Below, in pieces: positions 23,750-38,003 of a stretch of DNA of 64,000 nucleotides; the first letter of the stretch is position 1, and every line of letters starts with the position of its first letter. A program made the position numbers and the translations under genes. Where the stretch lies: assembly GCF_002940685.1 (NCBI RefSeq), contig NZ_PNFP01000010.1, positions 62,001 through 126,000 of the forward strand. The letters are read 5' to 3'. This DNA is from Ensifer adhaerens. Lineage in GTDB: Bacteria; Pseudomonadota; Alphaproteobacteria; Rhizobiales; Rhizobiaceae. The notes beneath the pieces were generated by a model. It was given only the letters and a program-made list of their open reading frames with translations, was not told where the DNA came from and searched no databases.

Positions 23750-24688
23750 ATGGCGTTGGATTCGTTGGATGTGCGGCTGCTGCGCATTTTTGTGACGATT
23801 GTCGAGGCAGGCGGTTTTGCGGCGGCGCAGGGAGAGCTCAACCTGTCGCTCTCGACGATTTCCAACCATATCTCGGCGCTGGAAAGCCGCCTGGGGCTGG
23901 TCCTCTGCCAGCGGGGCCGGTCCGGTTTCCGCCTCACCGAGGAAGGCCGCGCAGTCTACGAGGAGGCCAAGCGCCTGTTCGGTACGATCGACCAGTTCGA
24001 TATCCGCATGAAGGGGCTGCAGCACCGACTGAACGGGACGCTCTCCATCGGTCTCATCGACAACACCCTGTCGGACCCGGCCTCCCGCCTCAATCGTGTC
24101 TTTGCCCGGATGACCGACGAGGCGCCCGAAGTGGCGCTGTCGATCGTCACCCGGCCGCCGCATGAATTGCTGCGTGACGTGATCACCGGCGAGCTTCATA
24201 TCGCGATTGCAAGCTTCCCGCGCACGACGCTGGGGCTCGAATATGTCGATCTCTACGAGGAGACGCAGCGCTTTTATTGCGGCGCTGAACATCCGCTGTT
24301 TTCCCGCGATGACAGCACGATCGAGATCGACGATATCCGGTCCTACAATCTGATCGGCCGCTCCTACTGGAATGCCCGCGACCTCAAGATCTTCTCGATC
24401 GCCAATCCGCGCGCGACGGTCTGCGACATGGAGGCGGAGGCGCGGCTGATCCTCTCGGGCCGCTATCTCGGTTACCTGCCCGATCATTTTGCCAGTCGCT
24501 ATGTCAGCGAGGGGCTGTTGCGGCCGATCCGCCCGGATCTCTTCAGCTACAAGGCACCGTTCCAGGTGGCCTTCGACAAGTCGCGCGCGAAGTCCGGGCT
24601 GGTGCCGTTCTTCGTGAAACTGCTGACGAGCGAGTTCGGCGTTCCGCAGTCTCGCCGAGACCCATCGCGCATGCGGGCAGGACGCTAA
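23750..24688 (+). CDS. LysR family transcriptional regulator
   Basis: A 312-residue LTTR. The HTH is at about 6-65 (LDVRLLRIFVTIVEAGGFAA, GELNLSLSTISNHISALESRLG), and a type 2 periplasmic-binding fold follows to about 295. The effector domain resembles the group that includes regulators of amidohydrolase/aromatic catabolism genes, but no effector can be named. Its TAA stop codon is made by the left end of a RIME-like repeat. The target may be the amidohydrolase upstream. Confidence 0.92.
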   Translation: MALDSLDVRLLRIFVTIVEAGGFAAAQGELNLSLSTISNHISALESRLGLVLCQRGRSGFRLTEEGRAVYEEAKRLFGTIDQFDIRMKGLQHRLNGTLSIGLIDNTLSDPASRLNRVFARMTDEAPEVALSIVTRPPHELLRDVITGELHIAIASFPRTTLGLEYVDLYEETQRFYCGAEHPLFSRDDSTIEIDDIRSYNLIGRSYWNARDLKIFSIANPRATVCDMEAEARLILSGRYLGYLPDHFASRYVSEGLLRPIRPDLFSYKAPFQVAFDKSRAKSGLVPFFVKLLTSEFGVPQSRRDPSRMRAGR

Positions 24689-24791
24689 AGCGCGTCGCAA
24701 TCTTTCAGATTCGCTCGTGCGCATTAAGTTATTGATTTGACGCATGTCGTTGTCGCCAAACCGCTGCGCACTTTTGCGCGACATGCTCTAG
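24686..24791 (+). repeat. RIME-like palindromic repeat, copy A
   Basis: A 106-bp element. It begins with the stop codon of the LysR gene and ends GACATGCTCTAG. It contains two imperfect hairpins around TTAAGTTATTGATTTG. Copy B (34916-35021) is the same length, about 90 percent identical by eye, and in the opposite orientation. I recognise it as the Rhizobium-specific intergenic mosaic element type. Confidence 0.8.
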
Positions 24792-24852
24792 GACGCCGGG
24801 TCGCTGCTTGCGGCCGGCGCCTGGAAATGAAGGACCACGTTGCCTGGCGGTT

Positions 24853-26685
24853 TTAGTCGAGCTCGAAGTTTTCCTTGTAGTCCTGCTTCAGGTGCGCCGG
24901 CTGGTCTTCCTTCTTCAGCATGCAATTGCCGACGACGAGGCGCTCGATTTCCGTTCCCATGAAGCAGCGATAGGCGTCTTCGGGATTGCAAACGATCGGC
25001 TCGCCACGCACGTTGAAGCTGGTGTTGACGAGCACCGGGCAGCCGGTGCGCGCCTTGAACCGGGTCAACAACTCCCAGTAACGCGGGTTGGTCTCGCGGT
25101 GCACCGTCTGGATACGGGCGGAGTAGTCGACATGGGTCACCGCCGGTATTTCCGAGCGCGGCACGTTGAGCAGATCGATGCCGAACAGGTTTTCCTGCGG
25201 ATGATTGGCGTGCAGACGGCGGCTTTCCAGGACGTCGCCGACAAGCAGCATGTAGGGGCTGTCCGTGTCGATATCGAACCAGTCCGACACGTCTTCGCGC
25301 CGGATCGACGGAGCAAAGGGGCGGAAGCTCTCGCGGTACTTGACCTTGAGATTGAGCATCTTCTGCATCGTCGGCGAGCGTGCGTCGCCGAGGATCGAGC
25401 GCCCGCCGAGTGCGCGCGGGCCGAACTCCATACGGCCCTGCATCCAGCCGACGGCCTTTTCCTCGGCCAGCGCCGAAACCGTGGACGAGGTGACGTCCTC
25501 GTCCGACAGGACCTCGAATTTGGCGCCCGTGGCGGCGAGCCGCTGTTCGACCTCGCCCTGCTCGAAGGCAGGTCCGAGGTAGGAGCCGGACATCGCGTCA
25601 CCGTCCTTCGGTACGCGCGTGCTTCCGAGATACTCGTACCAGACGGAAAGCGCCGCCCCGAGCGCCCCGCCCGCGTCGCCGGCGGCAGGCTGGATCCAGA
25701 TGTCGTCGAAGATGCCGGCCTTCAGCAGCTTGCCATTGGCGACGCAGTTGAGCGCGACGCCGCCCGCAAGGCAGAGATTCTTCTCGCTCGTCTGGCGCCG
25801 GGCAAAGCGCGCGAGCCGCATGACCGCCTCTTCGGTCACGACCTGCACCGAGGCCGCCAGGTCCATCTCGCGTTGGGTCAGCGGCGCTTCCGGCTTGCGG
25901 GGTTCGCCGCCGAAGAGGTCGTGAAAGGCCGGCGAGGTCATCCTGAGGCCCGTGCAATAGCCGAAATAGTGCTGGTCCAGACGGAAGGAGCCGTCGTCCT
26001 TGAGATCGATCAGGTTGTCGAGGATCGTCTGCGCGAACCGCGGCCGCCCATAGGGCGCAAGCCCCATGACCTTGTACTCGCCCGAATTGACCTTGAAGCC
26101 GGTATAATAGGTGAAGGCCGAATAGAGCAGGCCAAGGGAGTGCGGGAAATGCACTTCCTTCAGGAAGTCGAGGCGGTTGTCGTGGCCATGGGCAAGCGAC
26201 GTGGTGCACCACTCGCCGACGCCATCCATGGTGAGGACGGCGGCGGAGGCGAAGGGCGAGGGAAAGAAAGCGCTCGCCGCATGGGACTGGTGGTGCTCGG
26301 TGAAAAGCAGCGAGCCGTCCCATTCCTTCTTGCCGGCGAGCTTTCCGAGATCCTTTCGCAGCATCGTCTTCTGGAACAGCTTTTCCTTGATCCAGACCGG
26401 CATCGCGACGCGGAACGAACTGAAGCCGTGCGGCACTGTCGCAAGATAGGTCTCGACAAGCCGCTCGAATTTCAGAAACGGCTTTTCATAGAAGACGACA
26501 TGGTCGATGTCGTTCATGGTGCAGCCTGCTTCCGACAAGCAGTATTCGATTGCCCGCGCCGGAAAATCCGGGTCGTGTTTCCGGCGCGTGAAGCGTTCTT
26601 CCTGCGCGGCGGCTACGATGCGCCCGTCTTCGACGAGCGCAGCCGCGCTATCGTGGTAAAAGGCAGAGATGCCGAGGATACGCAC
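24853..26685 (-). CDS. Carbamoyltransferase, NodU/CmcH family
   Basis: A 610-residue O-carbamoyltransferase. The N-terminal part has the ASKHA-like start GISAFYHDSAAALV and the metal-binding HHQSHAASAF at about 133. The C-terminal Sua5/YrdC-like part has GRMEFGPRALGGRSIL and NTSFNVRGEPIVC. The family moves carbamoyl from carbamoyl phosphate, through carbamoyl-AMP, to a hydroxyl of a sugar or antibiotic. The GTG start follows AAGGCGG, which overlaps the stop of the DUF5989 gene 12 bp upstream, so translation is coupled. It is far from any nod genes; the SxtJ-DUF5989-carbamoyltransferase order suggests modification of an exported glycan or lipid. Confidence 0.93.
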   Translation of the reverse strand: MRILGISAFYHDSAAALVEDGRIVAAAQEERFTRRKHDPDFPARAIEYCLSEAGCTMNDIDHVVFYEKPFLKFERLVETYLATVPHGFSSFRVAMPVWIKEKLFQKTMLRKDLGKLAGKKEWDGSLLFTEHHQSHAASAFFPSPFASAAVLTMDGVGEWCTTSLAHGHDNRLDFLKEVHFPHSLGLLYSAFTYYTGFKVNSGEYKVMGLAPYGRPRFAQTILDNLIDLKDDGSFRLDQHYFGYCTGLRMTSPAFHDLFGGEPRKPEAPLTQREMDLAASVQVVTEEAVMRLARFARRQTSEKNLCLAGGVALNCVANGKLLKAGIFDDIWIQPAAGDAGGALGAALSVWYEYLGSTRVPKDGDAMSGSYLGPAFEQGEVEQRLAATGAKFEVLSDEDVTSSTVSALAEEKAVGWMQGRMEFGPRALGGRSILGDARSPTMQKMLNLKVKYRESFRPFAPSIRREDVSDWFDIDTDSPYMLLVGDVLESRRLHANHPQENLFGIDLLNVPRSEIPAVTHVDYSARIQTVHRETNPRYWELLTRFKARTGCPVLVNTSFNVRGEPIVCNPEDAYRCFMGTEIERLVVGNCMLKKEDQPAHLKQDYKENFELD

Positions 26686-26697
26686 GATCGAGCCGCC

Positions 26698-26847
26698 TTA
26701 GAACAGCGTGTAGATGAAGGGGGCGACAGCCGTTCCCTGCGTCAGGACCACCAGAGTTCCGAAGATGGTCGTCATGACCAGGATCGGCAGCAACCAGTAT
26801 TTCTTGCGGTTGCCCATGTAAGACAGGAGTTCCCGAGTAAGGTCCAT
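26698..26847 (-). CDS. DUF5989 family small membrane protein
   Basis: A 49-residue protein: about 18 polar residues (MDLTRELLSYMGNRKKYW) and then one long hydrophobic helix with the family ending QGTAVAPFIYTLF. The family occurs next to NodU-type carbamoyltransferases and SxtJ proteins in many bacteria, with no proven function. The ATG at 26847 follows AGAGGA. It is the middle gene of the three-gene operon. It is probably an inner-membrane partner that places the carbamoyltransferase at the membrane (inference). Confidence 0.88.
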   Translation of the reverse strand: MDLTRELLSYMGNRKKYWLLPILVMTTIFGTLVVLTQGTAVAPFIYTLF

Positions 26848-26892
26848 TTTCGTGTCCTCTGTCCGATACAGTAAGGGATAGGTTCTTCAAAT

Positions 26893-27324
26893 TCAGAACT
26901 GGTTTTTCATCGTGGCCTCGGCCGCGTCGCCTTTTGGCTTCTCGATCCAATAGGTCTTTGCGTTCTTGTCGAACTGCGCGGCCAGCGCGTCATGCCTGCG
27001 CAGCCTGAGATAGAAGCCGATCGGCACGAAGGTCGTGACGTAGATCAGGAACATCACGACGGGGTTGACGATCCTGAAAAGGACGACGCCGAGCTGCATC
27101 CAGAGGTGGTTGGCGCGTGTCAGGGTCGCGGGCGCGATGAACGCCAGGACGACAAGAACCGCGCCGATCACGGCAATTACGGCCGTCACCGTGGTTATCT
27201 CGGAAGCCCGCCACCATTTCACCAGAGCGATCAGCAAGAGGATGCCACCGACGGTATAGCCGAAACTTCTGTTCGACGGTCCTTCCGGGAGCTTCTCTTT
27301 GAGTGGTCCGTGAGAAATGCTCAT
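26893..27324 (-). CDS. SxtJ family membrane protein
   Basis: A 143-residue inner-membrane protein with about three to four hydrophobic segments (SFGYTVGGILLLIALVKWW, VTAVIAVIGAVLVVLAFI, LFRIVNPVVMFLIYVTTFVP) and a conserved cytosolic end containing FDKNAKTYWIEK. SxtJ was named from saxitoxin clusters, but the family is widespread beside carbamoyltransferases. I chose ATG 27324 because GAGGTGG lies upstream; an alternative start at 27339 adds five residues. It is the first gene of the SxtJ-DUF5989-carbamoyltransferase operon and is divergent from the histidine kinase gene. Confidence 0.87.
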   Translation of the reverse strand: MSISHGPLKEKLPEGPSNRSFGYTVGGILLLIALVKWWRASEITTVTAVIAVIGAVLVVLAFIAPATLTRANHLWMQLGVVLFRIVNPVVMFLIYVTTFVPIGFYLRLRRHDALAAQFDKNAKTYWIEKPKGDAAEATMKNQF

Positions 27325-27801
27325 TGCTATCCACCTCAAAGCGGTTAGCTAAAAACGCTCATTTTCAATTGTACCGAGGAATGAGAAAATTTAGTCATTT
27401 ATAATGAGAGAATATGAGCGGCAAATACTGGGATAGGTCAATATGCCAATGGATATAGACGGGCATATCCTGCTCGTTTTCTTGGCGGCCCATGCTGATG
27501 TTGAGGACTTTGTACGGACGCTTGCGGTGTTACAGCTGCCCTGACGCAAGCGCGAGGATGTGTCGGATGCCGATCAAGCCCTAACCTTGGGTATACTCGT
27601 GGCTGAAGGCAATTGAGAATATGATCATAAAAGCGTATTCTTGCATGATTTTAGAAGGTGCGCTTAGCGACTCCAAGATTCGTGCTGCCCATATCGTTAA
27701 CGGTGTGGTTGTCTCGGTCTGCAGTCGACATTTAGTTTTGTTCTGGATCGCCGCGCGTATTTGCAACTTGGCGGGGATCGGCCGAAGGCGGAGACAACGG
27801 C
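27325..27801. promoter_or_regulatory. AT-rich divergent control region of the carbamoylation module
   Basis: 477 bp clearly poorer in GC than its surroundings, lying between the SxtJ operon and the kinase gene. It contains an inverted repeat ATATGCC-N14-GGCATAT (27441-27468). A short reading frame at 27443-27544 (33 codons, MPMDIDGHILLVF at its start) has only a weak ribosome site, so I do not call it a gene. Promoters for both arms should be here. Confidence 0.5.
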
Positions 27802-29610
27802 ATGAGGCTGGAGCCGACAGACTGTTTCAGCGCTCGGCGTTGGAGCCCGGCGGGCAACCGTCTGCGGCCGGAGTTGAGATCGGCGATCGACGGGGACCAG
27901 GCTTCGGGACGTAAGGTGTGGGCGAACACCTTCCGCGCCCGATCCGACAAGGTAATCGCTGTCGGGCGCATCCTTCTTGCCGCCGGCAGCGTGTGGATCG
28001 TCTGGCTTGATTCCGTTCATGTGCCGCTGCCGCCCGAGCCGATCTATTTTCTTCTGACTGTTTATCTGTTCTACGCGGTCGCGGCCGCCTTTCTAGTCTG
28101 GCGCACGGACATTTCGCGGGTTCGCGGCACCCTGGTCCGCCATGTAATCGATGTTGCTGCCCTGACCACATTCATGTCGATGACCGATGGTCCAGCCAGC
28201 CCGTTCTTCATGTTCATGCCGTTCACGCTGCTTTCAGCGACCCTGCACTGGCGTTGGCGCGGGGCGCTTTACACAGGCCTTGTCTGCCTGGCAGCGTTGC
28301 TCTACCTCGGATACTTCGACACCAACGAGCTGCTCGATCCGGATTCGGACACGACCACCAACGCATCGCGGCTTCTTTTCATTTTCGTGGCTGCGGTCTT
28401 GCTGGTTTGGCTCGGCGCACATCAGGAAGCAGTCAGAGCTGAGCTGTTACGCCTCGTCCAGCGAACGCCGGCCCAGCCAAGGGGCCGTGAGTGGCCAGTA
28501 CGCACGGCACTCGATTACGCCGCCCACGTCATGCTGGTGCCGCGCGCACTGCTATTGTGGACGGACGCGGAAGAGCCTTGGACCTATGCGGCTTTGTGGA
28601 ACAAAGGCGAACTCGAGGTCGTGCAGATGTCGCCAGACGCCTTTGGCAGCTGGACGGACGAGAGATTACTGTACAGCAGCCTGCTGATCACTGAGGCCGC
28701 GGCCGGGCGCCTTCTCATCCACACGGGCGAGGGGCGGTTTCATCGATGGACGGATCCCGAGCCGCCGATCTCGCCGGCTCTCGTCGAGGCTTTCAAGATC
28801 AATTCCGCGGTCTCGACCTTTTTCCAGGTCGACGATCTCCAGGCACGCCTCTTTGTATTGGAGCCACCCGCACTCACGCTCGACGACGTTGCGATCACCG
28901 AGATTATTGCCGACCGGATAAAGGCCCTGTTCGAGCAAGCCATCCTGGTGCGGCAGCTGAGCGACGAGGCAGCAGTGAACGAGCGTATCCGTATCGGTCG
29001 CGACCTGCATGACGGCGTCCTCCAGGCCCTTGCGGGCACCGCATTGCATCTTCAGTCGCTGCGGAAGCTCACCGATGTGCGGCCGGAGGTTCTGGCGGAG
29101 CGCCTCGACACCATCCAAGCGATGCTGCAGGACGAACAGCGGGAGCTTCGTGGCTTCATTCGGGCACTCGAGCCGGGCGGCAACCTGAGGGCTACCGACG
29201 AAATGAGCCTTGAGCGGCAACTCGAGGCGTTGGCGGTGCGGCTTAGTCAGCAATGGCAGATCGACATATCGATCGCCTTCGATCCACCGGCTGGCATCGA
29301 TCTGCCGTTGGCTCTCACCTATGAACTCGCCCGCATGACCTCTGAAGCGACCGCCAACGCAGTCCGGCATGGCGGAGCGCAGACGGTCCGGATCGTGGTC
29401 CGGGTCGACGCTGGTTCGATCGTGCTGACGATCGACGACGACGGCATCGGCTTCGGCTATGGTGGGCGCCTTGACCATACTGAGTTGCAGCGGGAAAAAA
29501 TCGGGCCCCGCAGCCTGCGTGAGCGCGCGGCGGCGCGCGGCGGAAAACTTGCGATCGAAAGGATAGCGGAATGGACAAGGGTCATCGTCATGTTGCCGAT
29601 GCCGCAGTAA
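27802..29610 (+). CDS. Membrane sensor histidine kinase, NarL/DesK (HisKA_3) type
   Basis: A 602-residue kinase. About five hydrophobic helices lie between residues 50 and 210, a GAF-like region at about 225-385, then the HisKA_3 dimerisation domain with phospho-acceptor H403 in GRDLHDGVLQAL, and an HATPase domain (ATANAVRHGGA, DDDGIGF). It senses a membrane or envelope cue and phosphorylates the response regulator whose gene overlaps by 40 bp. The ATG follows GGAGA. Its place between the two arms of the carbamoyl/SGNH module makes it the likely controller of both. Confidence 0.92.
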   Translation: MRLEPTDCFSARRWSPAGNRLRPELRSAIDGDQASGRKVWANTFRARSDKVIAVGRILLAAGSVWIVWLDSVHVPLPPEPIYFLLTVYLFYAVAAAFLVWRTDISRVRGTLVRHVIDVAALTTFMSMTDGPASPFFMFMPFTLLSATLHWRWRGALYTGLVCLAALLYLGYFDTNELLDPDSDTTTNASRLLFIFVAAVLLVWLGAHQEAVRAELLRLVQRTPAQPRGREWPVRTALDYAAHVMLVPRALLLWTDAEEPWTYAALWNKGELEVVQMSPDAFGSWTDERLLYSSLLITEAAAGRLLIHTGEGRFHRWTDPEPPISPALVEAFKINSAVSTFFQVDDLQARLFVLEPPALTLDDVAITEIIADRIKALFEQAILVRQLSDEAAVNERIRIGRDLHDGVLQALAGTALHLQSLRKLTDVRPEVLAERLDTIQAMLQDEQRELRGFIRALEPGGNLRATDEMSLERQLEALAVRLSQQWQIDISIAFDPPAGIDLPLALTYELARMTSEATANAVRHGGAQTVRIVVRVDAGSIVLTIDDDGIGFGYGGRLDHTELQREKIGPRSLRERAAARGGKLAIERIAEWTRVIVMLPMPQ

Positions 29611-30251
29611 CGCTGCGCGCAATCGTCGTAGATGATCACCGGATCGTCCTTGACGGGCTGCGCCGCCTGATCGAGACCGTGCCTGGCTGGCAGGTGGCCG
29701 CGACCTGCGAGCGCGCCGACGATGCGTTGCAGATCCTCTCAGAAAAGGCTGTCGACATCGTTGTTGCCGACCTTCGCATGCCGCAAATGGACGGACTTGA
29801 ATTCATCCGTCGGCTGCGTATTCATGGACAGCAGATCGCAATCGTCATCCTGACGGCCGACATCTCCGACGACCAAATCGCCGAAGCGATGAAACTCGGG
29901 GTGAGCGGCATCGTGCTCAAGGAGCAGGCGCCTGACACCCTGCTCGATTGCATCGATGCAGTGGCCGCCGGCAAGACCTATTTGCAAGATCGGGCGCTGA
30001 CCTCTGCGCTCGATCGGATACGGATGCAGGAGACCGCGTGGACGCAAGGGGGTGAACTCTTGACCCAGCGCGAAATTGAAGTGTCGCGCCTGGCGGCCTC
30101 CGGCATCCGAAGCAAGGAGATCGGCGCCCGACTTGGTATTTCTCCGGGCACCGTTAAGTTGCATCTCCACAGTATCTACAGCAAGCTTGGCATCGCGACG
30201 CGCGTCGAACTTGCCAATCGGGCCAGCCGGCTCCTGAGAGCGCCAGAGTAG
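29571..30251 (+). CDS. LuxR/NarL-type response regulator
   Basis: A 226-residue regulator with a receiver domain (about 15-130; acidic pair D21/D22, phosphorylation site D67 in VVADLRMPQMDG, conserved K in VLKEQAP) and a LuxR HTH (about 160-220: LTQREIEVSRLAASGIRSKEIGARLGISPGTVKLHL). It overlaps the kinase gene by 40 bp, so the two are translated together. The targets are probably the AT-rich control regions before the SxtJ operon and the SGNH genes; this is inferred from position. Confidence 0.93.
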   Translation: MDKGHRHVADAAVTLRAIVVDDHRIVLDGLRRLIETVPGWQVAATCERADDALQILSEKAVDIVVADLRMPQMDGLEFIRRLRIHGQQIAIVILTADISDDQIAEAMKLGVSGIVLKEQAPDTLLDCIDAVAAGKTYLQDRALTSALDRIRMQETAWTQGGELLTQREIEVSRLAASGIRSKEIGARLGISPGTVKLHLHSIYSKLGIATRVELANRASRLLRAPE

Positions 30252-30384
30252 CGGCCAACGGTTGTGTTCAACGAGTTCCAAGATCATCGAAGCCGCCGTT
30301 TGTTTGCGGTGGATTAGCAAGTACACATTTTTCTTTCTGCATTCGTCGTAGCTTTTCGTAGATTTCGTTCAAGGAAATATAGCT

Positions 30385-31719
30385 ATGAATTCAAGAAGGG
30401 TTGCGGCGATACTGTGTGGAGTGCTCGCCGTCTATCTGCTTCTCAGCCCGATATACGCGCTATACCATTTCAAGGAATACGCCTCTTCGATCCCGTTGAT
30501 TGCGCGCTACGTCCTTGCGCCAGTCGTACTGGCACTCTTCTTCCTTGCCGTCGGCCTCTTTGCGAAGCCGTCCGTCGCTCTCACTGCTGGCGTCTATGCC
30601 TTAAGCGTTCTTGGTGGGCTGTTCCTATTTGAAACCCTGCTGACATTGCGCTCCGTCCCGGTTCGCATGTCTATGCTGGGACAATTGTCGCCCGAGCAGA
30701 GCGCCGCTATCGCGCGGGAGGGTGACGTCGTGCGCGGCTTTACCTTGCCGCAGCTCAACAGACTGTCTGATGTCAAGGACCTGAACCGTGCCGTTCTTTC
30801 CGGGTTCCCTGCGCAGCAGGTCATTCTTTGCGCGCAACCGTCCAGTGTCGTCAGCTACAGGGCAGACCGCTATGGCTTCAACAATCCGGACTCGGTTTAC
30901 GATAGCGGCCGGATAGACGTGATGCTGCTCGGCGACTCCTTTGTCGAAGGTTTCTGCTTGCCGCCAGGCGTCGATCTCGTCTCGCAGCTGCGCCAGAAGG
31001 CCGTCTCGGCCGTCGGCTTCGGCATTCGGGGCAGTGGCCCTCTAACAGAGCTCGCAATGCTAGGGCGGTTCGGTCCGATGCTCAGGCCACGCCATGTTCT
31101 CATTGTGTTTTTTGAGGGCAACGACTGGCGAAATCTGGAGGGAGAGCTCTTGATTTCATGGTTGCGTTCCGCCCTTGACGAATATGCCGATTTTGGCACG
31201 CCGCAAAGCGCAGGCGCGGCAATGCTTCGAGCAAGGGCCGCCATCGGCGAACTCAACCGCCAGCCCATAACGGTGGCGGACCTGCTTGCAAGGACCGAAG
31301 TGCTGCGCAACTTCTTTGCCCTGCAGCAGACCTTTGCACGGCTCGGGTTGAATTTTCCGGGGGCGACGCAGGATATTCCAGAGTTTAGGCATGTCCTTCG
31401 GCGGTCAAAATCGATCGTGCAGAGTTGGGGCGGCTCGCTCCAGCTCGTCTATGTGCCGAGGGTCGATCGGTATCTGGGCGCTTTTTCCGCTCGCTCCGCT
31501 TTCGAGCCGCTGCGCTCGCTGGTCGCGCGAGGTGCGGCCAGCGAGGCTGTTCCCCTCATCGACCTTTCGACCGCTTTCGAAGGGCGTCCTCGGCCACAGG
31601 AGTTGTATGGCGCGGATGGTCACTTCAGCGACAGCGGCGCAGTGTTTGCAGCCGAGATCATCGCCCGCCACATCCAGGATGGGTCGATCGCCGATGCTGC
31701 GGTTCGAGAGGGGCGATAG
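30385..31719 (+). CDS. Membrane-anchored SGNH hydrolase-like protein (1)
   Basis: A 444-residue protein with three hydrophobic helices in the first 90 residues and then a periplasmic SGNH/GDSL-like domain. The nucleophile block is MLLGDSFVEGF, the oxyanion segment is FEGNDW, and the end GADGHFSDSG supplies the Asp-His pair. The family includes acyl esterases and acetyltransferase partners acting on glycans (AlgX/AlgJ type). It lies 133 bp after the response regulator gene. The start ATG follows AAGGAAATATAG. Sequence suggests an O-acetyl or other acyl-ester activity; the substrate is unknown. Confidence 0.82.
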   Translation: MNSRRVAAILCGVLAVYLLLSPIYALYHFKEYASSIPLIARYVLAPVVLALFFLAVGLFAKPSVALTAGVYALSVLGGLFLFETLLTLRSVPVRMSMLGQLSPEQSAAIAREGDVVRGFTLPQLNRLSDVKDLNRAVLSGFPAQQVILCAQPSSVVSYRADRYGFNNPDSVYDSGRIDVMLLGDSFVEGFCLPPGVDLVSQLRQKAVSAVGFGIRGSGPLTELAMLGRFGPMLRPRHVLIVFFEGNDWRNLEGELLISWLRSALDEYADFGTPQSAGAAMLRARAAIGELNRQPITVADLLARTEVLRNFFALQQTFARLGLNFPGATQDIPEFRHVLRRSKSIVQSWGGSLQLVYVPRVDRYLGAFSARSAFEPLRSLVARGAASEAVPLIDLSTAFEGRPRPQELYGADGHFSDSGAVFAAEIIARHIQDGSIADAAVREGR

Positions 31720-31977
31720 AACGGCAATCGCGATCTGCCGCCCGCGTTGCTGCCCATGACCTTCCGACAATTCGCCGTACATCATGAAGAAACAAGGCTG
31801 GAGTATATCCATCTGGATATATTCAGAATGAAAATCCTGAGATAGAGTTCGGAATTGTAAGGCGTATCCGGCAGAGAAGCGAAATCGCCGAAGCTCATGT
31901 CGCTGTATAAAAAATAGATTATTGGTGTCGTAGTCAAAAAATATTCACGGTGTTCTTCTCTGCTTCGGAGGGCCACT

Positions 31978-32454
31978 ATGCATGTTCAAAGTGTTATTGA
32001 AATAGCGCAAACAGACGGTCGGATTCCGGTCGAGATAATCATAAAGGGTTATCGTTTGAGCCAGAAGCGGCTTACCGTCTTCGTATTGAACGAGGTGACG
32101 CCGGCCGCGGTCAATCGCGTGCTCGATCCCGTGGTGCCGACGTTACCTCTTCTTATTCCCGGCGTGCTCTACGTCAAGATTTCAGATGATGCCCGCGTGC
32201 GCGAGGCCGTCGAGACCGCGGAGGTCGTCTACGCCGCCACCAGTCTGTTTCGCGACCTGTTGACCGGTTACGGGATCTTGCCCGGCCTGCTCCGGCCGGT
32301 CGAACTCCTGCGACCGGGTTCCTCCAGGTGCACCGGGCCCGCGGACGCCGGCGAACAGAAGCGTGCGGCGTCTCCGGCGAAAGTGCCGAGGCGGACGACC
32401 ACCTATCTCGCCAGCCTAGTGCGGTCCTACTGGCGCGAAGCCGGAAGCGGCTGA
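31978..32454 (+). CDS. Protein of unknown function in the SGNH cluster
   Basis: A 158-residue, probably cytoplasmic protein. The N-terminal 100 residues look like an alpha/beta domain (VEIIIKGYRLSQKRLTVFVL, VVPTLPLLIPGVLYVKIS, AVETAEVVYAATSLFRDLL). The rest is basic and low in structure. No family is recognised. ATG 31978 has CGGAGG upstream. Position between two SGNH genes suggests a role in the same module. The 258-bp upstream space is AT-rich and has the repeat TATATCC-ATCT-GGATATA at 31804-31821, so a separate promoter is likely. Confidence 0.65.
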   Translation: MHVQSVIEIAQTDGRIPVEIIIKGYRLSQKRLTVFVLNEVTPAAVNRVLDPVVPTLPLLIPGVLYVKISDDARVREAVETAEVVYAATSLFRDLLTGYGILPGLLRPVELLRPGSSRCTGPADAGEQKRAASPAKVPRRTTTYLASLVRSYWREAGSG

Positions 32455-32508
32455 GTTGGGCGGTGCGGCATTAACCCCAAATGTTTCAACACAGAGCGTA
32501 CGATCAAG

Positions 32509-33768
32509 ATGTCAGCCGACATGTCCCGAAAAGCCGAACGTCCGGATGCGCTCAATCTCAACAATCCGACGGCTACGCCTTCGGATTTCCTTGACCAAGA
32601 CAGGCCCCGGTCGAATGGGATCCTGCAGCGCATGCGCCGTTCGCGCAACTTCGGCGGCGTGATGGATGGGCTGATCATCGTCGTTTCCGGCATTGCCGCC
32701 ATTCTGATCTGCGAGACGGTGTTGCGGTTTGTGCCGAGCCTCCAGTCGCCGGTCGGCGAGGGCGAATATGTCTATTGCGGCGTGCCGCGGGCGCGCCACC
32801 AGTCACACGCGCTGTATGGCTACACCGAAATACCGGGCAACAGCTATTTCGAACGCTTCAGCCCGTTTGACCCGTGGAACCATATCCAGATCAACAGCGA
32901 CGGCTTCCGCGACAATGCGACCGGCAACGGCGCGCCGATCCTGGTTCTCGGCGATTCCATGGTGCGCGGTTCGCTCGTCAAGGAGAGTGAGACCTTCAGC
33001 GCGCTTCTGAACGCCTGGCATCCGCAACTCCTCTTCAAGAACTACGGTACCGGCGGCTACGGCCAGCCAAACGAGATCCGGCTCTACGAGGACAAGGGTC
33101 CCACCATTCCGCACAAGCTGGTCGTCGTCGGCCTTTCGCTCAGCACCGATGTCGAGGACAACGCCGAGCGGGCCGTGCTGACGCCATCGTCGGCCGAGAT
33201 CACGGTCGAACCGGCGGGGACTGGAGCGAAGAAGCCCAGCCTCGCTCTGCAGGCGCACCTGTACCTGTGGCAGAAAAGCAAGCTCTACAATTGGTTCTAT
33301 CTGACGCTGCTGCGGCCCTATATCGGCGACAGGGCGTCCCGGCGGGACATGGACCAGGCGATCGAGCTGACGCGTCGGCTGTTCGTGCGGCTTGCAGGCG
33401 ATGCGTCAGCGAACGGTGCCGAACTGCTCATCGTTATCCTGCCCGGCTGGGCGGAACTTGCGGGCCGCGACGACGGTCTGCAGCCGACAAAGCAGCGCGA
33501 GATGGTCAAGGCATTCGCCGCCGCGACACCAGGGGTTTACGTGGTCGATCCGACGGCGAAGCTCGCTGCCAGCGACCCGATGAAGACCTATGGCAGCGGC
33601 GACAAGCACCTGTCCCCGCTCGGGCATTTCGTCGTGGCCGTGGCGATCGACAAATGGCTGCTCAACAGCTGGCGCGGCGGCCAGGGCCTCACGACTGCCA
33701 AGCATGAATTCGTTCAGAGCGCTGTGGTCCAGCCTGATTGCCTGCAGCTTTCGCAGGTCGCGCCGTGA
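32509..33768 (+). CDS. SGNH hydrolase-like membrane protein (2)
   Basis: A 419-residue protein with a polar N-terminus of about 50 residues, one transmembrane segment (MDGLIIVVSGIAAILICETVL) and a periplasmic SGNH-like domain: ILVLGDSMVRGSLV (serine block), a glycine/asparagine segment FKNYGTGGYGQPNE and the end GSGDKHLSPLGH with the Asp/His pair. It probably acts on acyl groups of an exported glycan. The ribosome site before ATG 32509 is weak, so ATG 32521 is possible. It is followed after 25 bp by a third SGNH gene. Confidence 0.83.
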   Translation: MSADMSRKAERPDALNLNNPTATPSDFLDQDRPRSNGILQRMRRSRNFGGVMDGLIIVVSGIAAILICETVLRFVPSLQSPVGEGEYVYCGVPRARHQSHALYGYTEIPGNSYFERFSPFDPWNHIQINSDGFRDNATGNGAPILVLGDSMVRGSLVKESETFSALLNAWHPQLLFKNYGTGGYGQPNEIRLYEDKGPTIPHKLVVVGLSLSTDVEDNAERAVLTPSSAEITVEPAGTGAKKPSLALQAHLYLWQKSKLYNWFYLTLLRPYIGDRASRRDMDQAIELTRRLFVRLAGDASANGAELLIVILPGWAELAGRDDGLQPTKQREMVKAFAAATPGVYVVDPTAKLAASDPMKTYGSGDKHLSPLGHFVVAVAIDKWLLNSWRGGQGLTTAKHEFVQSAVVQPDCLQLSQVAP

Positions 33769-33793
33769 TCGGCGGACCTGAAAGGAAGATCAG

Positions 33794-34867
33794 ATGTACA
33801 CCAATGCATCCAGAGCCGAACCGAACAGCGGCCGGAAATCTACCATTCTCAGGCGAGCACCACTCGCTGTGCTCGCGACGGCGTTCAGCCTCGCTCTCTT
33901 CGGTCTGATGATCGAAGGCATGGCGCGTACCGTCTTCGACAACGGCATGGATTTCGACCTCGAGATGTGGAAATACGCCCGCGACCTGAAACGCGTCAGC
34001 GCCGAGCCGGCGATCGGCCACGAGCACATTCCGAACTCTATCGGCGTCTTCATGGGTGTGCCGGTGAGCATCAACTCGATTGGCCTGCGCAACAGGGAAG
34101 TCGGCCCTGTTGCCGACGGGACGACGCGGGTGGTGATGCTCGGGGATTCGCTGACCTTCGGCTGGGGCGTGAAAGAGGAGGATACGCCGTCCAGGCTGCT
34201 GGAAACGGTCCTCAACGGTGGCACCACCGGGGCGCGCAATTACGAGGTCATCAACACCGGCGTCGGCAACTACAACACGCAGATGGAAGTCGCCTACTTC
34301 ATGACCAATGGCTTCGAGCTCAAGCCCGATGTCGTCGTTCTCAACTATTTCATCAACGATGCCGAATCGACACCGCGCCGTCGCGAGGTCGGCTGGGGCG
34401 AATATTCGCAGGCCTACGTCATCCTTGCGTCTGCCATCGACAAAGTCTCGCGCATCTTCCTCGGCCGGGCCGACTGGAAGGGCTATTACCGGGGTCTCTA
34501 TGAAGACGGGCAGCCCGGTTGGGCGGAAGGGAAGGAGGCGATCAGGCTGCTTGCGAGCTTCTGCCGCGAGCGCGACATCAAGCTTGTGGTCGTCAACTAT
34601 CCCGAACTGCATGAACTCAAGAACTACCCCTTCCCGGAGGTCACCGGTGCGGTCGAGACGCTGGCCCAGGACGAGGATGTTCCCTTCCTCGATCTTCGCC
34701 CGTCGGTCGAGGATCTCGTACCGGAAACGCTCTGGGTGTCGCCGTCCGATGCTCACCCGAACCGGATCGCCAACGAGCGCTTCGCCGAGGCGATCGCCGG
34801 AATGTTGGAACGCTCCTACCCGACGCTCTTCGCCGAGACCGGATCGGTCGCCAACGTCCAGCCGTGA
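33794..34867 (+). CDS. SGNH/GDSL hydrolase family protein (3)
   Basis: A 357-residue protein with an N-terminal membrane anchor (about 20-42: APLAVLATAFSLALFGLM) and a complete SGNH domain: VVMLGDSLTFGWGV (block I), NTGVGNYNTQ (block II), NYFINDAE (block III) and SPSDAHPNRIAN (block V Asp-His). This type sits beside NodU-type carbamoyltransferases in many genomes. ATG 33794 follows GAAAGGAAG. It is the last gene of the plus-strand arm; copy B of the RIME-like repeat comes 49 bp after its stop. Confidence 0.87.
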   Translation: MYTNASRAEPNSGRKSTILRRAPLAVLATAFSLALFGLMIEGMARTVFDNGMDFDLEMWKYARDLKRVSAEPAIGHEHIPNSIGVFMGVPVSINSIGLRNREVGPVADGTTRVVMLGDSLTFGWGVKEEDTPSRLLETVLNGGTTGARNYEVINTGVGNYNTQMEVAYFMTNGFELKPDVVVLNYFINDAESTPRRREVGWGEYSQAYVILASAIDKVSRIFLGRADWKGYYRGLYEDGQPGWAEGKEAIRLLASFCRERDIKLVVVNYPELHELKNYPFPEVTGAVETLAQDEDVPFLDLRPSVEDLVPETLWVSPSDAHPNRIANERFAEAIAGMLERSYPTLFAETGSVANVQP

Positions 34868-34915
34868 GGCGACCGCGATCGGCCGTTGCGTAGCTTCATG
34901 CTCGGCGGTTCGCCG

Positions 34916-35021
34916 CTAGAGCATGTCGCGCAAAGAGCGCGGCGGTTTTGCGACAACGACATGCGCCAAATCAATAACTTAAGCGCACCGAGCGTATCTG
35001 AAAGATCGCGAGGCGCTTTTA
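34916..35021 (-). repeat. RIME-like palindromic repeat, copy B
   Basis: A 106-bp element, inverted relative to copy A at 24686-24791. Read on the minus strand it begins with the TAA stop of the autotransporter gene and ends GACATGCTCTAG. It lies between the convergent SGNH and autotransporter genes, so it may act as their terminator. Confidence 0.8.
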
Positions 35022-38003
35022 GAAATCCACGATCAGGTTTGCGCGGCCGGCACTCGAGCGTGCGCCGTTTCCGAATTCGCCGAGATAGGTGATCGCCAGC
35101 CGCGCGGATTTGGAGAGGCGGGCGGAGATGCCTGCCTCCATCACCACGGCATCGCGCGCCATGGGAACGCCGGCGATGGTGAAGGGGGTGGCGCCGGCAA
35201 AGGCAAGCCGCGCGGACGGCGCAATGTCGCCGCCGGCGTGGCGCCAGCCGAGCATGCCCGAGGCGGAGACCGGGACCTGGCTTGCCGGCAGGTCCGCCCA
35301 CCAGCGCACGCCGATGGTTGTCAACGTGGCGTCGTCGTCGGCGTCATCCGCCGACAGCGCCGCCGAACCGCCGGCCTCCCTGAACTGATCGGTATCGAGA
35401 TAGACATAGGCAAGGTTCGCGAACGGCTGCAGCCGGATGGCGTCGGCGTCGAGGGTGACGGAAAGGTCGGCAAACACCTGGGCAACGCTGCTGTCGTAGT
35501 CGGCAGTCAGCCGATCGCTGAACGAGCCGAAGGCAAGGTCACGCTCGGACGAGACTTCGTTATGGGTGTAGATCGCGCCGCCTGCAAGGTTCAGCGCCCC
35601 GATGTTCCCATATCCGTAGAGGCCGGCATGGTAGGCATCGACACGCGCCTGCGGCTGAACGGTGAGATGGCTGTAGCCGAGGATCCCGCCGAGGCGCCAA
35701 TCGTCGGAAACCGACGTATCGGCGCCGACGAGGACACCCGCCGTGCGGCTATCGATAGCTGCTGCGTTGCCGTCACCGGACAAATGGCCCGCGCCTGCAA
35801 ACCCCGACGTCCAGAAGACAGCGTCCTCGGTTTCCTGAAGGGTCGAGACGGCCGAGCCCGCGCGCTCCAGAATGGCGTCCCGCGGAAAACGGCTGTCCCA
35901 CATCAGCGCGCTCTTGACCGAAGCGTGGACCTCGCCGCTCAGTTGGGAAAAGGCGCTTGCCGCCGTTGCATCATCCAGCGAGAGCACGGCCAGCGTGAGC
36001 GGGCTCGTGATGCCCAGCGCTTCGACAGCGCTTGCCGCTGCGCGCCCGTTGGCGGTTTCTGCGAGGTCCGCGAAGGCAACGTCGTTGCGGTCGAGCCTCA
36101 GATCGATGCCGGTGGCGCCATAGGTCAGCGTCGGCGACAGGAACGCAAGATTGCTCGTCACCGCGTCGAACCGGCCGCTGACAGTGCCGGCAGAAACGAT
36201 CGTGTAGCTCGTCGACGGGTCATAGACGCCGCTGCCGGCGAGGACCGCCAACCTGCCGCCCTCAAGCGAAAGCGCGCCCGAAACGGCCAGGCGGTCTGAT
36301 TGCCCTGCCGCATCCACATCGACCTGATAGATCGAGCCCGAACGGAACGTCAGGTCGCCGTTGACGGTGGCAACCGCGATGCCGGGGCCGGGAGAGACCA
36401 CACCACCGGCATTGATCGTCAGGCCGCCAACGATGCCGCTGCCGGACAAGAGACCGCCGTCGAAGATCTCGACCGTCCCGGCGACCGTACCCTGATTGAC
36501 GAGCGCGCCGCCCGTGATGCTTGCCGGACCGCTGATCGTGCCGGTGTTTTCAAAGAGGCCGCCGCTACTTGCAAGCGAAGCGATGGTTCCGTCGTTCGAC
36601 CCGGTGCCGGCGTTGGAAACTGCCCCGGCAGTCGCGCCGCTGTTGTTGGTGAACGTGCCGTTGGCACCGATCTCGACGTCGGCGAGCGCCGCATTGTTGA
36701 CGACGCTGCCGCCGGCAACGGTTGTCTTTCCGGTCACCGTGCCGTTGCCGTTGTTGGTGAAGGATCCGCCATCGTTGCGCACGGAAGCGATGGTTCCGGC
36801 ATTCGAAAGGGTGCCGGCGTTGGTGACGTTGCCGGCCACGGCGCCGCTGTTGTTGACGAAGGCGGCGGCGGCCGCGACATCGGCGTCGGTGACGACAAAG
36901 TTGTTCGTCACGGAGCCGCCTGTAACCGTCGTCTTCCCGGTGACTGTGCCGCCGGCATTGTTGGCGAAGTTTCCGGCTGTGTTGGTAAGTCCGGCGATCG
37001 TGCCGGCATTCGACGCGGCGCCGCTGTTGGTGACGGCTCCTGCGCTCGCGCCCGAGGTGTTCGTGAAGGTGCCGCCCGCGCCGACGGTGACCGTACCGAG
37101 GGTCGCGTTGTTGGTGACGGCGCCGCCCGAGACCATGGTTTCGCCGGTCACTTCGCCGCCGAAATTGTTGGTGAAGCTTCCGGCGTCGTTGCGCACCGAT
37201 GCGATGGTGCCGGCGTTCGAGACCGTCCCGGCGTTGGTAATCGCTCCCGCCGTTGCGCCATTGTTGTTGACGAAGGCGGCCGCTGCCGCGACATCCGCGT
37301 CGGTGACGACGAAGTTGTTGGTGACGGTTCCGCCCGCCACCGTCGTTTTCCCGGTGATCGTGCCGCCGGTGTTGTTGGTGAAGTTCCCCTGGGTGTTCGT
37401 CAGCGAGCCCATGGTTCCGGCGTTGGAGGCGGTGCCGGCATTCACCGTCGCGCCGGCGACGGCGCCGGTGTTGTTCACGAAAGTGCCCCCGGCCGAAACG
37501 TTGACGTCACCGACCTGGCCGTTGTTGGAAAGCGACGTGGCGCTGCCGACGCTGGCGCTGTCCAGCGTTCCGTTCACCGACACGTTGCCGCTGTTCAGCG
37601 TCAGTCGTCCGTTGAGGTCCCCATCGATCGACAGGCTGCCGCCGTTCAGCTCGACATTGGAGGTGAGTGCGCCGCCTGCGTTGATGCTGACGCTTCCGGA
37701 ATTGATCGTGCTGCCGTTGGTGACGGTCAGCGCTCCGGTGTTGGAGATAGTGACATTTCCGCCGTCGACGCCAAGCTGGCGGATCGTACGGCTGTCGTTG
37801 ACCTGCGGAGAGCCGGTTTTGACCTCCGCTGCGTCGTTTGCGCCGGGCAGGGCGGGCGCCCAGTTCGCGCCGTTGCCGAACTCATTGTCGGCTCCCCCGG
37901 TCCAAACGGTCTGGGCAAGCGCCGGCGTCGAGAGGGCAAGAGAGGCTAGTGCCGTGAAAAGGCCGAGGCGTTTGGAAAGGACCGCGAGCGGTGTTTGTCG
38001 CAT
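35019..38003 (-). CDS. Autotransporter (type Va) with repetitive passenger
   Basis: A 994-residue secreted protein: signal peptide about 1-30 (LSTPALAQ), a Gly/Asn/Thr-rich beta-helix passenger about 31-690, and a C-terminal autotransporter beta-domain about 725-994 ending in phenylalanine (ANLIVDF). The passenger has short repeats such as NAGTxSNAGTIASV and a large duplicated unit of 138 residues, each holding NNFVVTDADVAAAAAFVNN. The barrel inserts in the outer membrane and exposes the passenger, probably for adhesion. Its stop codon is supplied by the adjacent RIME-like repeat. It stands alone. Confidence 0.9.
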   Translation of the reverse strand: MRQTPLAVLSKRLGLFTALASLALSTPALAQTVWTGGADNEFGNGANWAPALPGANDAAEVKTGSPQVNDSRTIRQLGVDGGNVTISNTGALTVTNGSTINSGSVSINAGGALTSNVELNGGSLSIDGDLNGRLTLNSGNVSVNGTLDSASVGSATSLSNNGQVGDVNVSAGGTFVNNTGAVAGATVNAGTASNAGTMGSLTNTQGNFTNNTGGTITGKTTVAGGTVTNNFVVTDADVAAAAAFVNNNGATAGAITNAGTVSNAGTIASVRNDAGSFTNNFGGEVTGETMVSGGAVTNNATLGTVTVGAGGTFTNTSGASAGAVTNSGAASNAGTIAGLTNTAGNFANNAGGTVTGKTTVTGGSVTNNFVVTDADVAAAAAFVNNSGAVAGNVTNAGTLSNAGTIASVRNDGGSFTNNGNGTVTGKTTVAGGSVVNNAALADVEIGANGTFTNNSGATAGAVSNAGTGSNDGTIASLASSGGLFENTGTISGPASITGGALVNQGTVAGTVEIFDGGLLSGSGIVGGLTINAGGVVSPGPGIAVATVNGDLTFRSGSIYQVDVDAAGQSDRLAVSGALSLEGGRLAVLAGSGVYDPSTSYTIVSAGTVSGRFDAVTSNLAFLSPTLTYGATGIDLRLDRNDVAFADLAETANGRAAASAVEALGITSPLTLAVLSLDDATAASAFSQLSGEVHASVKSALMWDSRFPRDAILERAGSAVSTLQETEDAVFWTSGFAGAGHLSGDGNAAAIDSRTAGVLVGADTSVSDDWRLGGILGYSHLTVQPQARVDAYHAGLYGYGNIGALNLAGGAIYTHNEVSSERDLAFGSFSDRLTADYDSSVAQVFADLSVTLDADAIRLQPFANLAYVYLDTDQFREAGGSAALSADDADDDATLTTIGVRWWADLPASQVPVSASGMLGWRHAGGDIAPSARLAFAGATPFTIAGVPMARDAVVMEAGISARLSKSARLAITYLGEFGNGARSSAGRANLIVDF

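Follow-up and report, generated by a model that had tools for sequence, protein, structure and literature searches.

A block of genes in Ensifer adhaerens, a soil relative of the root-nodule rhizobia, is probably a self-regulated carbamoylation satellite of one exported sulfated Wzx/Wzy polysaccharide that is made by genes elsewhere. The block lies in a 64,000-nucleotide stretch (the window; contig NZ_PNFP01000010.1, positions 62,001 to 126,000, designated C2:62001-126000) of a 7.52-Mb genome (G000). As described in the initial annotation, the genes are arranged divergently: those for an O-carbamoyltransferase (CTase), a DUF5989 protein, and an SxtJ-like protein lie on one strand, and those for a sensor histidine kinase, a LuxR-type response regulator, three SGNH proteins (SGNH1, SGNH2, and SGNH3), and a conserved partner protein (UNK158) lie on the other. 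All of these genes were found. The sequences point to the satellite reading through the linkage of the two arms, the co-occurrence with one marker gene of the polysaccharide locus, conserved operator-like sites, and a single clade of CTases.

A kinase-profile scan of named genomes identified 16 named kinase loci, which belong to Ensifer, Sinorhizobium (including S. fredii, S. americanum, S. terangae, and S. psoraleae), Rhizobium sullae, two Kaistia species, and a Rhizobiales isolate. In all 16 loci, the regulator gene and the SxtJ, DUF5989, and CTase genes were located within 10 kb, in varied gene orders. The two arms, which had been proposed to form one system, are thus linked across genera, and because gene order varies among the kinase loci, the linkage is not mere inertia. 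SGNH1 was present in 13/16 loci and UNK158 in 14/16, and SGNH2 and SGNH3 occurred together in 6/16. Our home-made gene caller overlooks some genes, UNK158 of loci L034, L035, and L038 among them. Within the genus, the kinase was detected in 6 of 16 genomes, within the family in 4 of 247, and within the order in 5 of 327, at search thresholds of 1e-40, 1e-70, and 1e-60, respectively. Three of the five order-level matches occurred together with DUF5989, and the two most distant (2.3e-108 and 8.4e-64) did not. Two loci hold distant relatives of the kinase: L090, in which a kinase/regulator pair without a CTase is encoded on a 5.6-kb contig, and L089, for which the gene calls are unreliable. UNK158 was found in 5 of the 327 order genomes, every time within 8 kb of a DUF5989 gene, and DUF5989 itself was commoner (42 of 327 genomes, 41 of them above the cut-off).

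In a CTase tree of 42 rows, the 22 kinase-bearing CTases formed a single clade (support 98/96), which was nested in a clade of 27 UNK158-bearing CTases (support 96/94). The tree omits the duplicate loci L025, L032, L033, L088, and L168 as well as loci without a CTase call of 560-660 amino acids. The kinase loci include close relatives, and counts such as 22/22 do not represent 22 independent cases.

The kinase cassette co-occurred with a glycosyltransferase (GT) of the polysaccharide locus. With a probe from S. psoraleae, this GT was detected in all six kinase-positive genomes of the genus and in one of the ten kinase-negative genomes (G015; p=8.7e-4). A GT profile gave 14 matches among the 247 family genomes, comprising 7/7 genomes with a UNK158-type cassette (three of which, G000, G001, and G011, had supplied rows of the profile) and 7/240 others, the latter all without DUF5989. 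Three family genomes from one genus carried a DUF5989 cassette without UNK158, and these had no GT. For the UNK158 grouping, Fisher p values were 3.4e-10 when counted by genome and 6.8e-6 when counted by genus, and the value for all 10 DUF5989 genomes was 3.7e-8; ancestry is ignored in each case. Furthermore, the GT was present in 16/16 named kinase genomes; five of these had supplied rows of the GT profile, leaving 11/11 that were independent of it. Among 72,556 plasmid records, 36 contained the kinase. All 36 hold a CTase of at least 78% identity (38 such records in all), and all 36 are among the GT matches listed (101 and 102 records in two GT searches). The UNK158-type cassette was never seen without the GT; the GT does occur without the cassette. 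The putative switch is polymorphic, with the kinase present in 36 of ~100 plasmid records that have the polysaccharide GT. G015, the one genus genome with the GT and without the kinase, encodes an MBOAT acyltransferase in its polysaccharide locus (L121:1014-2582). An acyltransferase as a general replacement of the cassette was rejected: in the stretches fetched from the seven family genomes that have the GT but lack DUF5989, no gene resembled this one.

The target had been proposed to be an exported glycan or lipid. On the basis of the GT co-occurrence and the adjoining loci, the glycan is supported and can probably be narrowed to one sulfated Wzx/Wzy-type polysaccharide. The module was located inside or beside this polysaccharide's locus in five relatives: E. 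canadensis, NGR234, S. americanum, S. psoraleae, and Sinorhizobium sp. 8-89, the polysaccharide neighbors of the last three being assigned by homology cluster. In E. canadensis (G006), it is flanked by genes for a transport protein, a sulfotransferase, glycosyltransferases, a flippase, an export protein, a sugar transferase, and PIG-L and DegT proteins, and Wzz and Wzy_C domains are encoded near it. In R. sullae (L037), the only module neighbors seen were a glycosyltransferase gene and a sulfotransferase-like gene. In the genome that contains the window, the polysaccharide locus lies on a separate contig (C3, ~13.1-32.2 kb). This locus encodes a sulfotransferase, the GT, a pectate-lyase-like protein (21.3 bits, below the cut-off), a Wzz/kinase protein, a methyltransferase, Wzx, Wza, PIG-L and DegT proteins, a priming transferase, Wzy, and CysQ-like, CysN/C, and CysD-like proteins. 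In S. terangae, the module is without SGNH1, while an SGNH1 sits in the polysaccharide locus. The polysaccharide loci L120 and L114 encode 4,6-dehydratase, DegT aminotransferase, formyltransferase, ATP-grasp, and PIG-L proteins, an enzyme set that suggests that the repeat unit contains an N-acylated amino-deoxy sugar.

The module of S. meliloti 1021 occupies positions 479713-487224 of pSymB, and the sulfated polysaccharide locus is at ~795-818 kb. Judged from sequence, the S. meliloti ortholog of the polysaccharide locus is the Clr-activated nodP2-smb21248 cluster: SMb21240 and exoF3 (SMb21245) are the mapped Wzz/kinase and export genes when published site positions are used as start-codon distances (PMC12542648). 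The proposed product of this cluster is a sulfated polysaccharide that may limit secondary root infection; its structure was not known in 2017, and it is one of two proposed signals that limit secondary infection (PMC5498481). The word "carbamoyl" is absent from the main text of that article. The S. meliloti CTase (L176:19739-21571) is probably SMb20472, as given by a gene count from SMb20458, which is a UDP-xylose synthase gene (PMC6024577), to SMb20475, which starts near 488483, if the 49-amino-acid DUF5989 gene is unnumbered. In a transposon sequencing (Tn-seq) article, SM_b20472 appears as "arcB2," an ornithine carbamoyltransferase gene essential for symbiosis (PMC7268258); this was the only match for SMb20466-SMb20470 or SMb20472 in the accessible open-access literature. 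Caution is warranted here, as SMb20472 may have been misread as an arginine-pathway enzyme. A tentative and rather doubtful extension is that the two-component system, apparently acquired once by the cassette, lets rhizobia change on demand how a sulfated surface polysaccharide with a possible signaling role toward the plant is decorated, without changing how much of it is made, and that the CTase of this switch in S. meliloti is SMb20472.

The two arms had been described as sharing an AT-rich control region (27325-27801). The GC content of this region is 48.4%, compared with 63.5% for the window, and shared control is supported by a common operator predicted both before sxtJ and before UNK158. 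Motif sampling in the 250 bp upstream of sxtJ from 11 representative loci gave near-identical sites; the sampler forces one site per sequence, and the evidence lies in the near-identity of the sites and in the later scans. In a scan of 1.2 Mb, strong copies of the motif (17.6-28.1 bits) were confined to the sxtJ upstream regions of kinase loci, and the best match elsewhere scored 16.2 bits. Of 23 kinase-less loci taken, 20 had an sxtJ or CTase gene call, and upstream of these genes the 15-mer scored at most 13.0 bits; L092, L098, and L105 gave no row, neither gene being called. The best form of the operator is the dyad TATATCCA-N2-TGGATATA. The scan word, TATATCCANNGRYATAT, was found with at most one mismatch upstream of sxtJ in 22/22 kinase loci. 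An extended 23-mer word, CTATATCCAWYGGYATATTGACC, gave 46 matches with at most three mismatches in 202 sequences (duplicates included), and all 46 were upstream of sxtJ and on the correct strand. In the window, predicted operator 1 (TATATCCATTGGCATAT, part of CTATATCCATTGGCATATTGACC; 27441..27457, minus strand) is located 116 bp upstream of sxtJ and overlaps a -35-like TTGACC.

The operator core was also found upstream of UNK158, where it forms a perfect dyad in the window clade; predicted operator 2 of the window (TATATCCATCTGGATATA; 31804..31821, no strand assigned) is located 156 bp upstream of UNK158. With at most four mismatches to the symmetric dyad and within 320 bp, the site was present upstream of UNK158 in 18 of 20 UNK158-bearing loci, the starts being set by hand in the window, L034, L035, L037, and L038. 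In the two Kaistia loci, the best dyad upstream of UNK158 had five mismatches. The same intergenic site lies between divergent SGNH1 and sxtJ in several Sinorhizobium loci. As controls, the scan word at up to two mismatches gave no matches in five Markov-simulated versions of the kinase loci (470 kb), the reversed scan word gave none at up to two mismatches and eight at three, and the best dyad match in 50 simulated windows had 4-6 mismatches. These searches covered the fetched loci, and whole genomes were covered for the 15-mer only, in the 16 genus genomes. Of the 20 genus loci listed, those of G000, G001, G003, G009, and G011, all of them kinase genomes, contained the intact 23-mer, and the other 15 lacked the left half, with at least six mismatches.

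Among 61 other loci scanned, there were 13 matches, 12 in the duplicates of kinase loci that were omitted from the tree and one intragenic (L091). Polysaccharide genes as members of the regulon were rejected: module copies aside, the fetched polysaccharide loci had no site at up to two mismatches. Autoregulation of the kinase in the window was also rejected, the best dyad upstream of the kinase gene having seven mismatches. Upstream of the kinase gene, L034 and L038 carry operator copies identical to the scan word, and L035 and L040 carry weaker ones (2 mismatches). The DNA-binding domain of the regulator contains GTVKLHLHS, which is invariant in 13 loci, and operator-like sites were seen only in loci with the regulator gene. 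The regulator would bind both predicted sites.

A mechanism can be proposed for the block as a polysaccharide satellite. SxtJ and DUF5989 would hold the CTase at the inner membrane, where the CTase would O-carbamoylate a sugar of the lipid-linked repeat unit on the inner face. The three periplasm-facing SGNH proteins would then trim or exchange O-substituents, and UNK158 would act as a cytosolic accessory. The kinase/regulator pair would turn this decoration on via the dyad operators upstream of sxtJ-DUF5989-CTase and UNK158-SGNH2-SGNH3, with the polymer synthesis genes remaining outside its control. Binding by the regulator, transfer of the carbamoyl group to its acceptor, assembly of the complex at the membrane, the step assigned to the SGNH proteins, and the nature of the inducing signal are all inferred. 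The acyl editing by SGNH proteins and the reading of the envelope state by the kinase that were suggested in the initial annotation are hypotheses. Removal of carbamoyl groups has been proposed for SxtL (PMC2679770), and the SGNH proteins may therefore act as decarbamoylases; an esterase (or decarbamoylase) role appears somewhat likelier than a transferase role.

Several points weigh against the satellite reading. The link is a genetic one, drawn from sequence, and the marker in the co-occurrence counts is a single GT of the locus, not the entire locus. Part of the co-occurrence may reflect shared ancestry, the cassette and the locus often being on one replicon; in E. adhaerens, they lie on one record, 0.7-1 Mb apart. 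The UNK158 grouping was chosen post hoc, and when all genomes with DUF5989 above the cut-off are taken, 7/10 have the GT. In S. meliloti 1021, the module adjoins arabinose-polysaccharide genes and not the sulfated locus. Furthermore, of the six kinase-positive genomes in the genus, three had no SGNH1 match, the sxtJ sites are three to four mismatches off the perfect dyad, and two plasmid records, those of S. americanum CCGM7 and S. meliloti Ak57, have a CTase of at least 78% identity without the kinase. As to these genomes themselves, the CTase of CCGM7 (90%; NZ_CP013054.1) is ~6 kb from the polysaccharide GT on a record where a kinase match is absent. In Ak57 (L199), the cassette is at a different site without a kinase match, and an acyltransferase gene adjoins the regulator gene; the regulator and both operator-like sites are retained, and the SGNH1 match is split over two frames. 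In E. adhaerens G001 (L174), an SGNH1 homologue (60%) was found at a third place on the same replicon, beside a glycosyltransferase-like reading frame.

The cassette might instead carbamoylate another glycan, such as the lipopolysaccharide (LPS) core, O-antigen, K-antigen, or an arabinose-containing polysaccharide, with its co-occurrence with the sulfated locus reflecting shared replicon ancestry only. The S. meliloti 1021 module is near uxs/uxe genes, as would fit such a target, and WapO, a NodU-family CTase, has been putatively assigned to the LPS-core heptose in Pseudomonas (PMC8005017). However, among the maps printed, only those of the meliloti group (L176 and L045) showed the uxs/uxe neighborhood, whereas the kinase and the sulfated-locus GT go together in 16/16 genomes from several genera, and this locus holds or adjoins the module in five. 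We consider this alternative unlikely. The predicted operator could also belong to another regulator or be a conserved promoter element, with the kinase pair controlling other genes. The overlap of the 23-mer with the -35-like TTGACC, which is followed 18 bp further by TCTATA in several Sinorhizobium loci, is compatible with this idea, as are 15-mer matches at up to one mismatch in 15 of the 16 genus genomes, above the reversed control. The position of every 23-mer match upstream of sxtJ, the perfect dyad at UNK158 in the window clade, the missing left half in the 15 other genus matches, and the restriction of the sites to regulator-bearing loci nevertheless make it distinctly unlikely.

The cassette might also make or modify a diffusible small molecule, as do sxtI-L in the saxitoxin cluster and related genes in the suomilide cluster. 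The core gene set is the same, and GdmN and TobZ, the best solved relatives of the CTase, are tailoring enzymes with small-molecule substrates. This explanation appears very improbable: inspection of gene maps by eye, for 19 kinase loci (all 22 but L021, L023, and L038; mostly without a domain search of the neighbors), revealed no biosynthetic core, all three SGNH proteins bear N-terminal hydrophobic segments, and polysaccharide genes also lie close to the kinase-less UNK158 cassettes of G104, G238, and G169 or elsewhere in those genomes. The satellite reading remains the preferred one.

The individual genes of the block were assigned as follows. The CTase (24853..26685, minus strand) is an SxtI-like, NodU/TobZ-type O-carbamoyltransferase, with Pfam scores of 362.9 bits for Carbam_trans_N and 241.1 bits for Carbam_trans_C (cut-offs 24 and 27). 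It aligned to GdmN across the full length (E 4.4e-98), and its HHxxH (HxxxH) motif and metal-site Asp are present, which we take to be residues of a Kae1-type metal site. The DUF5989 protein (26698..26847, minus strand) is SxtK-like, has 49 amino acids and one hydrophobic segment, and scored 77.8 bits with PF19451 (cut-off 27). The SxtJ-like small membrane protein (26893..27324, minus strand; 143 amino acids, two long hydrophobic stretches) scored 24.0 bits with PF19588, 0.4 bit below the cut-off of 24.4, and was assigned with the aid of its hydrophobicity and homology cluster; the homology clusters of SxtJ and of the CTase were each present in 44/49 loci. The kinase (27802..29610, plus strand) has hydrophobic segments and a HisKA_3 domain (60 bits), and its membrane part gave a weak ActS/RegB-like match at residues 72-218 (26.2 bits against a cut-off of 350) and a likewise weak PilS-like score. 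The regulator (29571..30251, plus strand) has Response_reg and GerE domains. The domain make-up of the pair is that of a NarL/LuxR-type two-component system, and both proteins scored below every NCBIfam cut-off shown, the NarL, MctR, and MadR systems being compared.

SGNH1 (30385..31719, plus strand) combines membrane segments with an SGNH domain (Lipase_GDSL_2, 34.1 bits; cut-off 32.9). GDS, N246, and H413 are invariant and D411 is nearly invariant across 14 aligned sequences, and the predicted structure was only fair (pLDDT 71). SGNH2 (32509..33768, plus strand), membrane-anchored by one hydrophobic segment, had no Pfam match at all, Lipase_GDSL_2 included. It gave a weak match to the NCBIfam SGNH family LA_2490 (19.4 bits against a cut-off of 325), its GDS and DxxH blocks were seen by eye, and it weakly matches a Kaistia SGNH3 gene. 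The membrane-anchored SGNH3 (33794..34867, plus strand) scored 43.3 bits with Lipase_GDSL_2 and 50.6 bits with NCBIfam LA_2486 (cut-off 300). CTase, DUF5989, SGNH1, and SGNH3 were thus above their Pfam cut-offs. UNK158 (31978..32454, plus strand) had no Pfam match. Its residues ~1-110 are predicted to form one beta/alpha Rossmann-like domain (pLDDT ~90 across most of it). A Foldseek search returned nothing at E of 0.001 or lower; the best matches (E at least 0.02, TM-score at most 0.45) were mixed Rossmann-like folds, including several UDP-GlcNAc 2-epimerases. A PDB sequence match, 8qai (0.0016), was discarded as a designed coiled coil going by its name.

On the left, the block is flanked by an amidohydrolase-like gene (recognized by eye) and a LysR gene and, on the right, by an autotransporter gene. 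Three close relatives share both flanks, and a fourth shares the left one. The autotransporter (35019-38003; Pfam, 184.1 bits) has a passenger of four 207-nt repeats. A dispersed repeat of ~105 nt is located at both ends of the module (24687-24791 and 34916-35019) in inverted, ~90% identical copies, and two further copies are in the polysaccharide locus of G003 (L117). The block ends of 24686 and 35021 that had been assigned earlier correspond to this repeat and are thus not a module-specific boundary. A mobile element bounded by the repeat was rejected for the same recurrence in the polysaccharide locus of a relative. Two search words for the repeat gave 2 matches in the window and no exact match in 105 loci. 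It resembles the rhizobial RIME repeats.

Compared with known systems, the CTase belongs to the same family as the O-carbamoyltransferases GdmN and TobZ, for which structures have been solved, over its full length; to our knowledge, these enzymes have no SxtJ or DUF5989 partners. A role in Nod-factor carbamoylation, already thought improbable in the initial annotation, is indeed unlikely, the score with the NCBIfam NodU equivalog being 177.9 bits against a cut-off of 1000. Like the NarL, MctR, and MadR systems, the module has a HisKA_3 kinase and a GerE-type regulator, with the pair here a component of the cassette. WapO, the putative Pseudomonas LPS-core enzyme, resembles the module CTase in being assigned to an envelope sugar, but it belongs to an LPS-core locus, and SxtJ, DUF5989, SGNH, or two-component partners are unmentioned in the accessible part of its description (PMC8005017). 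The nodP2-smb21248 cluster is orthologous to the polysaccharide locus, and the satellite module is not tied to it in the accessible text (PMC5498481). If the module decorates this polysaccharide, the function of sxtJ and sxtK and the question of the product become testable in S. meliloti 1021.

The closest likeness is to sxtI-sxtJ-sxtK-sxtL of the cyanobacterial saxitoxin clusters, in which genes for a CTase, SxtJ, an SxtK of DUF5989 size, and a GDSL protein are likewise adjacent (PMC2679770, PMC2885083). In our reading, SxtK is DUF5989, from its size and place, and the whole set is present in the block, with SxtJ just below its cut-off. Genes like sxtJ, K, and L also occur in the suomilide cluster, and, according to a 2010 review, functional characterization was still lacking for every sxtJ and sxtK homologue (PMC2885083). 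A description of the module was not found in the accessible open-access literature on SxtJ/DUF5989 and on CTases with SGNH proteins. Unlike the saxitoxin set, the module has three SGNH proteins with membrane segments, UNK158, a two-component system, a predicted operator, and a polysaccharide-locus partner, and a toxin core was not noticed. It would offer a predicted regulon with a named operator and an example of polysaccharide decoration controlled separately from polymer synthesis. The proposal of an undescribed system thus holds in part: the core is the known sxtIJKL-type set of CTase, SxtJ, SxtK, and SxtL, whereas the two-component system, the operator, and the unlinked polysaccharide partner are new.

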